From NCBI GenBank assembly GCA_947649875.1, contig CANSTH010000007.1:1-40801 (forward strand): 40,801 nucleotides of DNA, written 5' to 3'. The notes beneath the pieces are model-generated. The model was given only the letters and a program-made list of their open reading frames with translations, had not been told where the DNA came from and did not search any database. How positions within the stretch are numbered: position 1 is the first letter of the stretch; each line of letters opens with the position of its first letter. Of the stretch, positions 33,550-40,080 are shown one piece after another. Source of the DNA: an uncultured Parvibacter sp. (lineage in GTDB: Bacteria > Actinomycetota > Coriobacteriia > Coriobacteriales > Eggerthellaceae). The position numbers and the translations under genes are program-made.

Positions 33550-34125
33550 CTATTCCCCATCATCCACAACTTCAACGTAGCCAGGAGCCTCTTCGGCGTC
33601 CGAATCGTAGAGGCCCTCGCCATCATCTTCCAGCTCCACGAAACGCTGATCCATCTCGTCTTCCGCATATTCGTCAGCAGCCTTCAGGCCTTCCATGAAA
33701 TTGGGGGCCTCGCCGATATAGGCCGCCTCGTCGGCAAACGTCACGTTGCCCTCATCGTCTATCGTATACAAGTAACCAATGGCATGGCCAGCGTCTTCAC
33801 CGGGCAAACCACCTTCGGCAATAAGCGCATCCTTCACGCCTTCGTCCGTCTCGATATAGCCGTCGTAGCCCATGGCATAAGCCTCGGCCCCACGAGCGCC
33901 CTCCACCGTATGACGGGCATCGGCAAAGCACTGCTCGGGGGTGTCGCCGGGATGCGACTCCATAAACAGGTTGTCCTTCACCACCAAGCAGCTAAAGGGG
34001 ATGATGTCCTGTCCCTGCTCCAGCTTCTCCTTCATTTCCTCTAAGGCGAAGATGAGCACCTTCTCCAGAAGGTCGGGCAGCTCGGGTACCTCTTCGGGCA
34101 TGGTTTCCAAAACGCGATCGGCCAT
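33550..34125 (-). CDS. Acidic protein of unknown function
   Basis: I do not recognise this 191-residue protein. It is strongly acidic, with about a quarter Asp plus Glu, especially in the C-terminal tail (EYAEDEMDQRFVELEDDGEG, DSDAEEAPGYVEVVDDGE). There is no signal peptide, membrane segment or cysteine cluster. The centre (FSCLVVKDNLFMESHPGDTPEQCF, then GYDGYIETDEGVKDALIAEGG) looks folded and could be a small alpha/beta domain. ATG 34125 has a perfect AAAGGAGG 8 bases upstream, so it is surely translated. It is a single gene, divergent from the AstE-like pair. Confidence 0.8.
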   Translation of the reverse strand: MADRVLETMPEEVPELPDLLEKVLIFALEEMKEKLEQGQDIIPFSCLVVKDNLFMESHPGDTPEQCFADARHTVEGARGAEAYAMGYDGYIETDEGVKDALIAEGGLPGEDAGHAIGYLYTIDDEGNVTFADEAAYIGEAPNFMEGLKAADEYAEDEMDQRFVELEDDGEGLYDSDAEEAPGYVEVVDDGE

Positions 34126-34419: not shown

Positions 34420-35403
34420 ATGCACCAAGTAAAACTGTTCGAACTGGAAACCCCCTATCGCGAAACCCTTGCCATCAAAGGCACCGCGTTTGGCCCAGAA
34501 GATGCACCGGAAAGCCTTGCGGTTGTGGGTGCGCTACGCGGAAACGAGATTCAGCAGGCATACATCTGCGCTCGGTTGGTTCAGCGCCTCAAGCAGCTGG
34601 AGGAAAGCGGCCTGGTCACCGGGCAGGTGAAGATACTGGTCATTCCCGTGGTGAACTCGTTTTCCATGAACATCGCCCATCGCTTTTGGCCCATGGACTC
34701 CACCGACATCAACCGCATGTTCCCTGGATACGACCAAGGGGAAACAACCCAGCGCATCGCAGCCGGGCTGTTCGAGCGCATCCAACACGCCACCTATGGC
34801 ATCCAAATGGCCAGCTACTACCTGCCCGGCAATTTCGAACCTCATGTGCGAGTTACCAACGCCAAGGCGCTCGACCCCGAGCGCTTGCGCGATCTGGCGC
34901 GCATGTTTGGCTTCCGCTACGCCCTGGTGAAAGAACCCTCCCCCTTCGACACCACCACCCTCAACTACAACTGGCAGGTTTGGAACACCTACGCCTGCAG
35001 CGTTTACGCATCGGCCACGAGCCACATCAACGAGCCGGCCGCCGACTTCGTTTTGGCGCGCATCCTGCAGTTCATGGAGGGCATCGGGGCCATCGCGCCC
35101 GACTTGAAAAATGCTGCCGGCCCTACGGGTTCAACTCCAGCCTTCGTCACCCAATGGGCCCGCGAAGAAGACCTGGTGAACGTGCGTACACGCCGCGCCG
35201 GGTTCTTCCGCCCGGTAGTACGGGTGGCGCAAACGGTTCAGCGAGGGGATGTGCTGGCGGAAATCCTCGACACCGATGACTGCACAGTGCGAGAAGTGCT
35301 TACCAGCCCCGTTTCCGGCACGGTGTTTTTCATCCACGAGTCCGAGCTGATCAACGGCGAAACTATCGCTTTTAAAGTGCTGCATTCCTCGGAAGTTCTA
35401 TAG
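34420..35403 (+). CDS. AstE/AspA-family protein lacking zinc and catalytic residues
   Basis: This 327-residue protein is homologous to succinylglutamate desuccinylase/aspartoacylase (M14-like) but appears inactive as a hydrolase. The family motif GxHG(N/D)E reads GALRGNE, with R40 for the zinc histidine; the second zinc histidine is Q129 in TYGIQMASYYL; the catalytic glutamate of the VVETG motif is A197 in SVYASA. The substrate-site motif DINRMFPG is kept. A C-terminal barrel-like domain (FRPVVRVAQTVQRGDVLAEI, SPVSGTVFFIHE) follows. ATG 34420 gives the natural family start; TTG 34408 is the track's alternative. It precedes a catalytic paralogue by 17 bases. Losing all three residues together suggests a binding or regulatory partner rather than random decay. 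Confidence 0.82.
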   Translation: MHQVKLFELETPYRETLAIKGTAFGPEDAPESLAVVGALRGNEIQQAYICARLVQRLKQLEESGLVTGQVKILVIPVVNSFSMNIAHRFWPMDSTDINRMFPGYDQGETTQRIAAGLFERIQHATYGIQMASYYLPGNFEPHVRVTNAKALDPERLRDLARMFGFRYALVKEPSPFDTTTLNYNWQVWNTYACSVYASATSHINEPAADFVLARILQFMEGIGAIAPDLKNAAGPTGSTPAFVTQWAREEDLVNVRTRRAGFFRPVVRVAQTVQRGDVLAEILDTDDCTVREVLTSPVSGTVFFIHESELINGETIAFKVLHSSEVL

Positions 35404-35420
35404 GAGTTACAGGAGCCCTC

Positions 35421-36380
35421 ATGATAGAAACCGTCTTCAGCGTTGAACTGCCCGTGCGCGAACATCTGCGCGTCCAAAAAAACCGCATTGTGGGCGCACA
35501 GCTGGCGAAGGCGGCGGCCAACGATCCGCAGCTGCTGGAAACTGCGCCGCGCCTAGCCGTGGTTACCGGCATCCACGGCGATGAGCTGGAGGGCCAATAC
35601 GTGGCGTTTCACCTGGCCCAAACTCTGAATGCCCACCTGGACCAGTTGCACGGCATTGTGGACATATACCCCGCCATCAACCCGCTGGGCATCAACGCGG
35701 TGGAGCGCGGCGTGCCGGGCTTCGACTTGGACTTGAACCGCATCTTCCCCGGCGATGCGAACGGCCCCCTTACCGAAGCGCTAGCGGCGGCCGTGATGGA
35801 CGACATCGAGGGCGCCGTGGCCTGCGTGGACATCCACGCCTCCAACATATTCTTGCGGGAAATGCCCCAGGTGCGCATCAACGAGAACTCCGCCGCGCAG
35901 CTGCTGCCGCTGGCACCGCTGCTGAACGTCGACTTCGTATGGGTGCACGCCTCCGCCACCGTGCTGCAGTCCACGCTGGCCTATTCGCTGAACGCCCGCA
36001 ACACCCCCACGTTGGTGGTGGAAACCGGCGTGGGCATGCGCATCACCCCCGACGATGACCGCAAGTTGGCGGAAGGGCTGCTGCGACTGGCCGCCCACTT
36101 CGGGCTGTGGAGCGGTCCGTTCGAGGCACACGGCATGCCGGTGATCAGTGGCGACAAAGCGGTGAGCTTCCTGAACGCCGAGGTGGCCGGCATCTTTTTG
36201 GCGAAGGCGCGCCATGGGCTGCGCATCGGCGAAGGGGAAACAATCGGCCAGATTGTGGACCCGCTGCAGGGCGTCGTAATGCAAGAGGTGGTATGCCCCG
36301 CTTCCGGCCTGCTGTTCACCCTGCGCGAATACCCCGTCGTCTACCCTGGCTCGCTGCTGGCCCGCGTGTTGAAGGAGTAA
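35421..36380 (+). CDS. AstE/AspA-family zinc amidohydrolase
   Basis: This 319-residue paralogue of the preceding protein keeps all expected residues: zinc ligands H52 and E55 in GIHGDELEG, H139 in CVDIHASN, catalytic E201 in VVETGVGM, and the substrate arginine motif DLNRIFPGD. It ends with the same small barrel domain (ARHGLRIGEGETIGQIVDP, CPASGLLFTLREYP). Family members remove acyl groups from amino acids or cleave amide bonds of small molecules; the substrate here is unknown. ATG 35421 follows an AGGAG. It is co-transcribed with the pseudoenzyme, with which it may form a heteromer, and is convergent with the amide-ligase operon. Confidence 0.88.
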   Translation: MIETVFSVELPVREHLRVQKNRIVGAQLAKAAANDPQLLETAPRLAVVTGIHGDELEGQYVAFHLAQTLNAHLDQLHGIVDIYPAINPLGINAVERGVPGFDLDLNRIFPGDANGPLTEALAAAVMDDIEGAVACVDIHASNIFLREMPQVRINENSAAQLLPLAPLLNVDFVWVHASATVLQSTLAYSLNARNTPTLVVETGVGMRITPDDDRKLAEGLLRLAAHFGLWSGPFEAHGMPVISGDKAVSFLNAEVAGIFLAKARHGLRIGEGETIGQIVDPLQGVVMQEVVCPASGLLFTLREYPVVYPGSLLARVLKE

Positions 36381-36543: not shown

Positions 36544-37380
36544 CTAGAACGTGAGAAGTTGGTCCGGCTCGTTTTGGGAGGTCGCATCGCCCAGGGAGGC
36601 GCTTATCTCTTGGGTTTGTTCGGCGGCGCCGCGGAAGATGCCGCGCTCGATGGGGCAATCCTCGAAATCGCGCCCCGTGGCAAACAGCATGTAGCGGTCG
36701 TCCACCTCCGTATTGTTGGTGGGGTCAAAGCCGTGCCAACGGCGACCATCGTGCACCTCCACCCATGCGTGAGTGGCTCCATGCCCTACCATCAGCCCCG
36801 TCACGTAACGGGCGGGGATACCAACGCTGCGACACAGGGCAATCATCACTTGCGCATAGTCTTGGCATACGCCAGTTTCGCAGCAGAAGGCCTCGGCAGC
36901 GGTAGTGGAAACGGACGTAGCGCCAGGCACGTAGCTGAACCGCGCGTGCACCGCCCCGCACAGCGCTCTCGCCTGTGCCAGCACGGTCGGGGTCTTCCCA
37001 TCGGAAGGCGAAAGACCAGCGCCCGCCACAACCTCTTTGGCGAAGCGCGCCATCTCCTCGGTGCAAGCGGTAAGGCGCGTAGGCTGCAGGAACATAGGGT
37101 GACAGGGGGTCTCGCCCGCAAGATCGCAGGCCACCATAACCTGACCAGTAGTGTAGAAGTTGAAGCTGTCGTGCTCTTCTGGCATGTAGCCCACCACTAT
37201 GCGGTTGCCAAAACCGTCTTGCTGCTCGGTGAGCACCACCCGCGGGAACGTGAATATCTGCGCATCCATCACTGTTTGGGTGTTGGTGCTTTTCGGCAGG
37301 CAGCGCAGCACGAAGCTGTGGTCGCTTACCGGTTTGCTGAACGTCAGCGACGTCTCAAACACATACGTGAGAATGCGCAT
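36544..37380 (-). CDS. Transglutaminase-like cysteine protease-fold protein
   Basis: This 278-residue protein has an N-terminal beta-rich domain typical of bacterial transglutaminase-like proteins (VFETSLTFSKPVSDHSFVLRCLP) and a complete triad: C172 in GVCQDYAQVMIALCRSVGIPARYVTGL, H204 in ATHAWVEV and D219 in WHGFDPTNN. Members probably act as peptidases or acyl transferases on amide bonds. ATG 37380 follows AAGGGA; the track's start 11 codons upstream is rejected. It is the last gene of the conserved trio ATP-grasp, alpha-E, transglutaminase, which is thought to make or modify peptide-like compounds. A 147-base gap with a repeat separates it from alpha-E. Confidence 0.9.
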   Translation of the reverse strand: MRILTYVFETSLTFSKPVSDHSFVLRCLPKSTNTQTVMDAQIFTFPRVVLTEQQDGFGNRIVVGYMPEEHDSFNFYTTGQVMVACDLAGETPCHPMFLQPTRLTACTEEMARFAKEVVAGAGLSPSDGKTPTVLAQARALCGAVHARFSYVPGATSVSTTAAEAFCCETGVCQDYAQVMIALCRSVGIPARYVTGLMVGHGATHAWVEVHDGRRWHGFDPTNNTEVDDRYMLFATGRDFEDCPIERGIFRGAAEQTQEISASLGDATSQNEPDQLLTF

Positions 37381-37414
37381 ATTTGGTCCCTTCGAATTTC
37401 CGTCCATCCCCAAT

Positions 37415-37499
37415 TCATAGGACAGAGATTCTATCTCTGCCTAACAGACAGCTGGCTTCTCCTTGCAGCTTAGGCAGACATAGAATGTCTGCCCTACGA
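37415..37499. repeat. Paired-hairpin repeat, copy 4 (inside the amide-ligase operon)
   Basis: The 85-base copy has left local hairpin CAGAGAT/ATCTCTG and right CAGACAT/ATGTCTG, the reverse combination to copy 3. It lies between alpha-E and the transglutaminase gene of the same operon. Confidence 0.9.
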
Positions 37500-37527
37500 A
37501 AACCGGTTGCAGGCCATCAACCATTCC

Positions 37528-38211
37528 CTAGAACAATCGGGCGATGAGGGTTAGCATGTGGCCGAGCTGCTCATAGGTTACTTCTGCGGGGAAGCTGGGG
37601 GCGAACACGGCGCCTATCAACTGCTTCAACGCATCGCGGTCGTACGGCATGCCGGTGCGGTCGATGCGGCTGGCCAGCTTCTGCACCTCGCGGCGCAAGT
37701 CGCCCAGCCGATAGCCCAGGCGCGTGTACAAATCCAGCCGCTCCACCGAGAAGCCGCATTTGATGATGTTGCGGGCGGCATCGTTGGCGATGTAGTCATC
37801 GCAGCTGCCCTTGAAGGCCATGATGCAGTCGGTTACCGCCTGCAAGTCCAGCAGCGGCGTGTCGGAAGCGGCGGCGGCCTGCGAATCGTTCAGCGCCATC
37901 TGCACATAGGCGGCCGACTCGCTGCCAATCACATCGCGCAGCACCACTGCGTTGTCGTAAGCCGCGTTCAGCGAGTAGGCGATGGATGCCGGCAGCTCGG
38001 CGCTGAACAGGCAATCGCGGAAGAACTGCTCGGGGTCGTCGGTTTCCTGGTTGAAGCCCAGCTCTTCCAGCTGGCCCTTCCAGTTTCCCTCCACCGAGTC
38101 CAACGCTGCATCGTAGGCGGAAAGCACGAAATGCAGCGTGGTGTAGCTGCGCTCAACGTAACGTCCCAGCCACAGCAGTCGGTCAACGCGCTCTATCGAG
38201 AGAGATCCCAT
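37528..38211 (-). CDS. Alpha-E domain protein (DUF403)
   Basis: This 227-residue all-helical protein starts LSIERVDRLLWLGRYVERSYTTLHFV, the hallmark of the alpha-E family, with later FRDCLFSAELPASIAYSLNAAYDNAVVLRDVIGSES and RLDLYTRLGYRLGDLRREVQKLASRI. Its biochemical role is unknown; it nearly always accompanies a circularly permuted ATP-grasp enzyme and a transglutaminase-like protein, as here, so it probably supports their amide-bond chemistry. It is shorter than the roughly 310-residue members. ATG 38211 follows GAAGGAAGG. Confidence 0.92.
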   Translation of the reverse strand: MGSLSIERVDRLLWLGRYVERSYTTLHFVLSAYDAALDSVEGNWKGQLEELGFNQETDDPEQFFRDCLFSAELPASIAYSLNAAYDNAVVLRDVIGSESAAYVQMALNDSQAAAASDTPLLDLQAVTDCIMAFKGSCDDYIANDAARNIIKCGFSVERLDLYTRLGYRLGDLRREVQKLASRIDRTGMPYDRDALKQLIGAVFAPSFPAEVTYEQLGHMLTLIARLF

Positions 38212-38362
38212 ATGCCAAACCTTCCTTCGCAGAAAGCAACATCCGTCTGAACAGCAGCGCCCCCTCGGACACCGCCAACAAAACCCCGCCGTACCGGTCA
38301 TGGCCCTGCACCGCTTAAACGAAACGCCGACGTATCGTCATCCGCTCCGCTCGGTCCGGTGC

Positions 38363-39937
38363 CTAACGAGCCAACACCCACGTGTCTTTGAACCCGCCGC
38401 CCTGGGAAGAGTTCACCACGCTGGAGCCGGCCTCGCGGGCATAGCGGGTAAGGCCACTGGGCCACACGGTGGTTTTCTCGCCAGACAGCACAAAAGCGCG
38501 AAGATCTGCCTTACGCGGCACCTCTTCACCATTTATCCAGGTGGGAAGGCACTTGAAGTCAATCACTTCCTGGGCGATAAACCGGCGCGGCTCCGCTTTC
38601 ACCTTGGCCAGCAGCTCGGCCAGGGCATCGGGCGCCAACTCGCATCCGAACACCACGCCATAGCCGCCCGCTTCAGCCACGTCTTTGATCACCAAGTTCT
38701 GGGCGTTGTCCAGCACATAGGCCAGGTCGTCCTCGTAATAGGGCAGGTAGGTGGGCGCGTTGTGCAAAATGGGAGTTTCGTCCAGGTAGTACTCCACCAT
38801 TTTGGGAACGAAGTAGTAGATGCCCTTATCATCGGCAGCCCCGTTGCCAGGAGCGTTGATAATGGCCAGGTTGCCGGCGCGATAAGCGGTCATGATGTTG
38901 GGCACGCCAATGAGGCTTTCCGGCAGGAAGCACAGGGGGTCCAGATACTCGTCCGACAGGCGGCGATACACCGCCCCCACCCGGGTATTGCGCGTACTGT
39001 CGCGATAGTACAGCACTTCGTTCTCCACGAACAGCTCGGACGGCTCGGCCAGCACCGCCCCAATGCGTTCGGCCAGGTAAGAATGCTCGAAATAGGCAGC
39101 GTTGTAGCGACCGGGGGTGAGCACCACGTTGATGCCGCCGCAGTTCACATTGTCCATCACTGCCCGCAGGCGGTCGGAGTAGTCGCGGTTATCCACCAGC
39201 GGCGTGTTCTTGAACGTGTGGGCATCGCAACGGCGACACAGCGTGCGCGCCACCAACGGATAGGACGCCCCCGACGGAATACGCAGGTTGTCCTCCAGCA
39301 CGTACCACACGCCGTCATCGCCTTCCACCAGGTCGATGCCCGAAATATGCGAGTAGATGCCCTTCGGCGGAACAATGCCCTCCACTTGCGGCAAGAAGCC
39401 CGACGAGGCATAGGCGAAATGCTGCGGAATCACGCCATCTTTGATGATTTGCGCCTCGTTATATAGGTCCAGCAGATAAGCATTCAGGGCGTCCACCCGC
39501 TGAATGAGGCCTCGTTCCAGCACCGCCCAATCGGCGGCGGATATTACGCGCGGAATAGCATCGAAGGGGAACAGGCGCTCTTCGAACTGGCCATTTTTGT
39601 ACAGCCCGAACTTCACACCATAACGGGCCAGCTGCTGGTTGATGCGAGGGCTGTAACCCACCAGTCGCGTATAAATTTGCGGTTGGCCCTCCTCGGGCGC
39701 ATTACAGCAGTCGCAATCGCATACCTCCGCCATGCCCACATCGGGAATGGCGTCCGGCGCTCCACTGGTTACCACCTCAGGGTCGAACGACTGCGGGGTG
39801 ACGGCATCGGAAAGCGGCTCATCGGGGCTCACCGATTGCATTTGCGCTTGGCTGGCTGCCTGTGCGCTTGCAGACGGTCCTTGATTGGCAGCTCGATCTT
39901 CCGATGGCGAATAGGGGTGCTCTTCGGATGGCGTCAT
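38363..39937 (-). CDS. Circularly permuted ATP-grasp ligase
   Basis: This 524-residue protein contains the circularly permuted ATP-grasp domain (DUF404/DUF407 type): YGVKFGLYKNGQFEERLFPFDAIPRVI, RVDALNAYLLDLYNEAQIIKDGVIP, GIDLVEGDDGVWYVLEDNLRIPSGASY, and near the end LVIKDVAEAGGYGV and RRFIAQEVIDF. Such enzymes are predicted amide ligases. The first 85 residues are a disordered Ser/Gln/Ala-rich extension ending in VCDCDCCNAPEEG, a tight cysteine cluster (C73, C75, C77, C78) that could bind metal. ATG 39937 follows GGGGAGAGG; the track's ORF starts further upstream. It heads the operon with alpha-E (151 bases downstream) and the transglutaminase-like gene. Confidence 0.92.
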   Translation of the reverse strand: MTPSEEHPYSPSEDRAANQGPSASAQAASQAQMQSVSPDEPLSDAVTPQSFDPEVVTSGAPDAIPDVGMAEVCDCDCCNAPEEGQPQIYTRLVGYSPRINQQLARYGVKFGLYKNGQFEERLFPFDAIPRVISAADWAVLERGLIQRVDALNAYLLDLYNEAQIIKDGVIPQHFAYASSGFLPQVEGIVPPKGIYSHISGIDLVEGDDGVWYVLEDNLRIPSGASYPLVARTLCRRCDAHTFKNTPLVDNRDYSDRLRAVMDNVNCGGINVVLTPGRYNAAYFEHSYLAERIGAVLAEPSELFVENEVLYYRDSTRNTRVGAVYRRLSDEYLDPLCFLPESLIGVPNIMTAYRAGNLAIINAPGNGAADDKGIYYFVPKMVEYYLDETPILHNAPTYLPYYEDDLAYVLDNAQNLVIKDVAEAGGYGVVFGCELAPDALAELLAKVKAEPRRFIAQEVIDFKCLPTWINGEEVPRKADLRAFVLSGEKTTVWPSGLTRYAREAGSSVVNSSQGGGFKDTWVLAR

Positions 39938-40080
39938 GGCCTCTCCCCTCTTGTTGTGGAAACTCCCAACATATGCGGGCGCATAGCCGCCCGAACCTCC
40001 ACGCAACCAAGCGCAAACCTCACGCTTAGCCGACTATCCCCATAGTAATGGTTCGACAGCCAATTCACGCCTGAAAACAG

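Follow-up and report, generated by a model that had tools for sequence, protein, structure and literature searches.

The gene pair and its products

In the 40,801-nucleotide stretch of DNA from an uncultured Parvibacter sp. analysed here (the window), two adjacent genes code for related proteins of the AstE/AspA fold, of which the first (protein A) lacks the catalytic set that the second (protein B) keeps. This raises the question of whether A is a decaying copy of a zinc hydrolase or a subunit maintained for another role. Protein A (327 aa; 34420..35403, + strand) was recognized as an AstE/AspA-fold pseudoenzyme from its ORF, the PF24827 profile, alignments and an AlphaFold2 model. Protein B (319 aa; 35421..36380, + strand) is predicted, by profile and motifs, to be an active zinc amidohydrolase, a member of the AstE/AspA (M14-like) family. 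The genes lie head to tail and, read directly, the gap between the stop of A and the start of B is 17 bases (35404..35420, + strand) with a purine-rich acaggag resembling a ribosome binding site; the coordinates, strand and ORFs of the tandem pair agree with those given in a preliminary description of this DNA. Both products score above the curated cut-off (25 bits) of PF24827 (AstE_AspA_cat), A with 40.9 and B with 77.4 bits, and theirs are the only PF24827 genes in the genome, a draft of 86% completeness. Although only 25% identical over 331 columns (BLASTP), A and B align end to end as profiles (99.8%, hhalign) and are therefore homologous. Neither reaches the NCBIfam cut-off of the DoeB, AstE or AspA equivalogs, the best score being 41 bits versus 402.7 for DoeB. 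The closest relatives of the pair are those of Parvibacter caecicola (L003), with 87% identity for A. Scans for promoters, terminators and RNAs around the pair found none. A 191-aa ORF without a Pfam or NCBIfam match (33550-34125, - strand) lies between ribosomal-protein genes and the pair.

Residues of the two active sites

B carries the motifs HGDE (H52, E55), DLNRIFPG (N106, R107), DIH (D137, H139) and VET (E201). H52, E55 and H139 are the predicted zinc ligands, E201 the predicted catalytic base, and N106 and R107 are predicted to bind substrate; judged from sequence, the set expected of a competent zinc hydrolase (two His and one Glu as ligands plus the catalytic Glu) is complete in B, whereas of these residues A keeps only the Glu ligand, as E43. 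Residues were matched between the two proteins with hhalign and two large MAFFT alignments. The codons for R40-G-N-E43 of A (34537..34548, + strand) match the zinc motif H52-G-D-E55 of B, those for Q129-M-A131 (34804..34812, + strand) put A131 at the zinc ligand His139 and Q129 at Asp137, and Y196 (35005..35007, + strand) falls at the catalytic Glu201 (codon 36021-36023), where most orthologues of A have Y or F. A thus has other residues in place of the two zinc histidines and the catalytic glutamate (R40 for H52, A131 for H139 and Y196 for E201). The earlier assignment of R40 to H52 was right, and those of Q129 to H139 and A197 to E201 were shifted. Likewise, the statement that A had lost every active-site residue holds for the catalytic set but is too strong as a whole, since A keeps E43 (the equivalent of E55) and the N98 and R99 of D-x-N-R, which hardly vary among the orthologues of A outside Campylobacterota. 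Because orthologues from several classes have the same substitutions, even at identities as low as about 40%, these are not a matter of chance.

A also has conserved motifs of its own (RGNExQQ, DINRMFPG, GIQ, PHVR and LNYNWQVW) and, as previously described, retains DINRMFPG and the C-terminal barrel. Its fold appears intact: the AlphaFold2 model is confident (pLDDT 88.6, pTM 0.89), and Foldseek matched it to 3cdx with a TM of 0.77-0.78 and to 3na6, 2qj8, DoeB and CphZ with a TM of about 0.7-0.8. The AstE/AspA-like zinc deacylases (PF24827; 3cdx, 2qj8, 3na6, DoeB 6twm and CphZ 8ein) therefore have their fold in common with A and B, but their full HxxE...H...E set is found in B and not in A, which has neither zinc His nor the catalytic Glu. 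No AstE/AspA pseudoenzyme pair or paired pseudo-subunit was described in the literature searched, which left out Iyer et al. 2009.

Co-occurrence, gene order and selection

When GTDB species genomes were searched with A, 44 loci were obtained, from Coriobacteriia, Lachnospiraceae and further groups, and a B orthologue adjoined A in all those with enough flanking sequence, except for one chimeric draft contig. Among 300 Coriobacteriia genomes, the 22 with a full A were the same 22 with B, always adjacent (22/22), and so were nine among 120 Campylobacterales (9/9). In 200 Lachnospiraceae genomes, B was present as a neighbour of A in 49 of the 51 that bear A, and some had two complete pairs; the two exceptions are a chimeric draft contig (G436) and a genome with A but no B (G373). 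A and B occur as a pair in at least three bacterial phyla. Of the two findings named beforehand as speaking against a conserved pseudoenzyme role, a structural alignment with different zinc ligands in A and genomes in which A stands alone and degrades, neither was clearly made: the A of G373 misses about 10 N-terminal residues but has an intact pocket, and G147 (Coriobacteriia) retains a C-terminal relic of A of about 60 residues and no B. The A-only loci L043 and L082 were rejected as true losses of B, as they look like draft-assembly chimeras; in both, an ATP-grasp gene is joined to the middle of A, at different points (at about 1090 and about 10870, respectively).

Of 83 pairs, 80 have B before A and 34 have a stop/start overlap of 4 bases; the order A-B is confined to the group of the window (3/83: the window, L003 and L011). 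For both A and B, dN/dS was 0.03-0.24 in all the pairs that allowed an estimate, among them some with two degenerate proteins. This, together with the near-perfect co-occurrence with B, argues that A is not decaying. The proposal of a conserved pseudoenzyme beside an active paralogue is thereby supported, with frequent overlap of the genes and purifying selection, well beyond Coriobacteriia.

A ligase operon around the pair

The preliminary description did not mention the surroundings that give the pair its context. On the opposite strand, and converging on it (36544-40006), are genes for a transglutaminase-like protein (Bact_transglu_N and Transglut_core profiles; 36544..37413, - strand, start codon uncertain), an Alpha-E protein (DUF403; 37528..38211, - strand, in an ORF open to 38301, the start MGSLSIERVD being set by comparison with L003) and a circularly permuted (CP) ATP-grasp protein, a putative amide ligase (CP_ATPgrasp_2; 38363..40006, - strand, core domain 38438-39553, start uncertain). 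The window thus has all five genes. The three genes of this amidoligase set (PF14403 for CP-ATP-grasp, PF04168 for Alpha-E and PF01841/PF08379 for the transglutaminase-like protein) are clustered in the window, and at 57 of 87 loci they form an operon with the pair. The usual order is ligase, Alpha-E, transglutaminase-like, B, A; relative to the pair, the set is turned round in the window and in L011, but not in L003. A strong CP-ATP-grasp occurred in 13 of the 22 Coriobacteriia genomes with the pair versus 15 of the 278 others. No Anbu-family gene (PF00227) was found in any of 23 Coriobacteriia and Lachnospiraceae genomes tested, G000 included, and the gene set is the "Anbu" amidoligase set without Anbu. 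In a Sulfurospirillum locus (L045, 8986-15717), there is a second set nearby, made up of a transglutaminase-like protein, a long ATP-grasp protein and a very long transglutaminase-like protein.

Glutamine-gene settings and opposite erosion of the pockets

A second kind of neighbourhood, also new with respect to the preliminary description, was found at other loci, where the ligase genes are missing. At nine Coriobacteriia loci (seven from one genus) the pair is beside glutamate synthase (GltB/GltD), mostly also with type III glutamine synthetase (GS-III), and a strong CP-ATP-grasp is absent from all of these genomes. Lachnospiraceae have a second, divergent type of pair directly upstream of purL (FGAM synthase), with carA/carB in some loci; the tested genomes with this type only have no CP-ATP-grasp, and in those with both types the CP-ATP-grasp is with the first pair. 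Pfam and NCBIfam profiles confirmed GS-III, GltB, GltD, FGAM synthase and CarA, and all the neighbours in these settings act either in forming glutamine or in drawing on its amide nitrogen. The tree of B implies at least three changes of setting, and the two GS/GOGAT arrangements look independent in view of that tree and of their differing gene orientations. In several loci of the purL/car type (L086, L091, L098 and L099), the gene immediately upstream of B codes for a TetR-like regulator.

The active site of B differs with the setting. Its seven catalytic positions were intact at all 55 loci with the ligase versus 5 of 22 in glutamine settings, where the changes were H52Y, N106D/E, loss of R107, D137V and E201K/R. 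In contrast, the pocket of A (R40, E43, N98, R99 and Q129) was intact at 43 of 46 ligase loci outside Campylobacterota and at 21 of 22 glutamine loci, the reverse being seen in Campylobacterota (A pocket intact in 0/9, B in 9/9). The Lachnospiraceae regions read closely were chosen by low score or second copy, and not by neighbour, so that the numbers per setting do not reflect how common each is in the population. The Fisher value for this contrast (5e-13) ignores relatedness, and an independent-pairs test of context versus decay of B could use only three pairs, most of which went the expected way, without significance and too few for a sign test. In the genus g58 (L073, L074, L075, L077, L078 and L079), both A and B have lost catalytic residues, giving a double-pseudoenzyme pair beside GS-III and glutamate synthase, with a dN/dS of 0.06-0.14. 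The pockets of A and B are under separate constraint, and the vacated site of A persists where the predicted catalysis of B has gone; its loss in Campylobacterota, where B is kept, means that pocket and pairing can part. This opposite erosion across lineages provides a natural experiment on catalysis versus ligand binding.

What protein A may do

Since the pair travels together in at least three phyla, beside an operon predicted to make amide bonds or beside glutamine genes, our results suggest that A is a maintained ligand-binding or regulatory subunit rather than a decaying copy. We believe that A and B form a two-subunit hydrolase module in which the catalytically dead A carries a metal-free ligand pocket, and that the module is tied to glutamine or nitrogen metabolism; we give this reading a probability of roughly 0.55. 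According to it, the metal site of A would have given way to a fixed pocket that holds no metal (R40, E43, N98, R99, Q129 and H142), and the original setting of the module would be the operon of CP-ATP-grasp, Alpha-E and transglutaminase-like genes. The product of the ligase would be a compound with an amide or isopeptide link; this compound, or one closely related to it, would be hydrolysed by B, with A positioning or controlling B. The pocket of A would most likely bind a product-like ligand or one related to glutamine or glutamate, as the glutamine-gene neighbourhoods suggest, and so set the activity of B. Independent hints of a link to nitrogen come from Anbu itself, which is up-regulated in nitrogen-limited Pseudomonas putida according to work cited in PMC5666114. 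Moreover, the domains of Anbu-type gene sets go along with those of urea metabolism in marine metagenomes (PMC3597751), and one predicted sigma-54 regulon cluster contains both Anbu (COG3484) and NifU (PMC12316311). The hetero-oligomer, the activity of B, the ligand and the direction of control are what we infer from these data. When a B-A fusion was folded (L004, read in frame through the stop of B, with 8 further paired rows), the domains were good but their relative orientation was not fixed (pTM 0.54); given the 2-residue linker and the shallow paired alignment, this does not amount to a negative result. Against the two-subunit module speak the persistence of A without B in G373, the loss of the pocket of A beside a kept B in Campylobacterota and the fact that the contrast between settings amounts to about three independent moves on the tree. 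Should it hold, the pair would be an alternative terminal hydrolase, of known fold and chemistry, for the widespread CP-ATP-grasp/Alpha-E/transglutaminase system, with a testable non-catalytic partner, and the genomic link to GS, GOGAT, PurL and CarA narrows the search for the ligand.

A related and more tentative possibility is that A is a sensor of glutamine or nitrogen status derived from a dead AstE/AspA hydrolase, its pocket binding glutamine or a derived metabolite; in lineages without the ligase, the pair would have moved at least three times beside glutamine genes (GS-III/GOGAT twice and purL/carAB once), the site of B would have eroded and the pair would now be a non-catalytic regulator.

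It is doubtful that A is only a structural partner, that is, a scaffold or stabiliser of B with a pocket kept for folding and neither ligand nor regulation. The Campylobacterota would fit such a role, as there A stands beside an intact B after the pocket (R40, E43, R99 and Q129) has gone as a set in 9/9, the YNW-type motifs staying. However, 78 A proteins of Coriobacteriia and Lachnospiraceae show essentially no variation at R40, E43, N98 and R99, even where the site of B has decayed, and a need for folding would not readily account for polar residues that stay constant where a metal site has been vacated. We consider it improbable that A is an enzyme of different chemistry (with another metal or metal-free) that acts in sequence with B without controlling it: neither zinc His nor the catalytic Glu has been kept, and the conserved residues provide no evident three-ligand site, with only one His and no invariant Cys, even if the fixed polar pocket of its own residues, including that His (H142) and E43, and the survival of A alone in G373 would be in line with it. 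Finally, an ordinary tandem duplication under relaxed selection, with A becoming a pseudogene and its neighbours hitchhiking, would account for the missing catalytic set and the relic in G147, but was rejected as very improbable on the dN/dS of 0.03-0.24 (doubly degenerate pairs included), the intact A ORFs across several phyla and the near-perfect co-occurrence of A and B.

Comparison with known systems

One close parallel to the proposed two-subunit module in its ligase setting is the Anbu operon, which consists of CP-ATP-grasp, Alpha-E, transglutaminase-like and Anbu genes. According to Iyer et al. 2009 (cited in PMC5666114 and PMC6376114), that operon may serve peptide synthesis or tagging. 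The two operons have the three partner genes in common and each includes a hydrolase, but Anbu, an Ntn hydrolase of the proteasome family, is absent here and the AstE/AspA enzyme-pseudoenzyme pair is in its place. A study of Anbu did not detect peptidase activity or specific interactions with the operon partners (PMC6376114). RimK/RimB and RloABC (PMC12239564) are alike in that a peptidase gene adjoins an ATP-grasp ligase gene, and RloABC also has an inactive enzyme domain; they differ in the unrelated peptidase fold, the membrane-bound inactive transglutaminase and the other type of ATP-grasp. A strong CP-ATP-grasp with neither the AstE/AspA pair nor Anbu was also observed in several Coriobacteriia (G019, G022, G203, G246, G260 and others).
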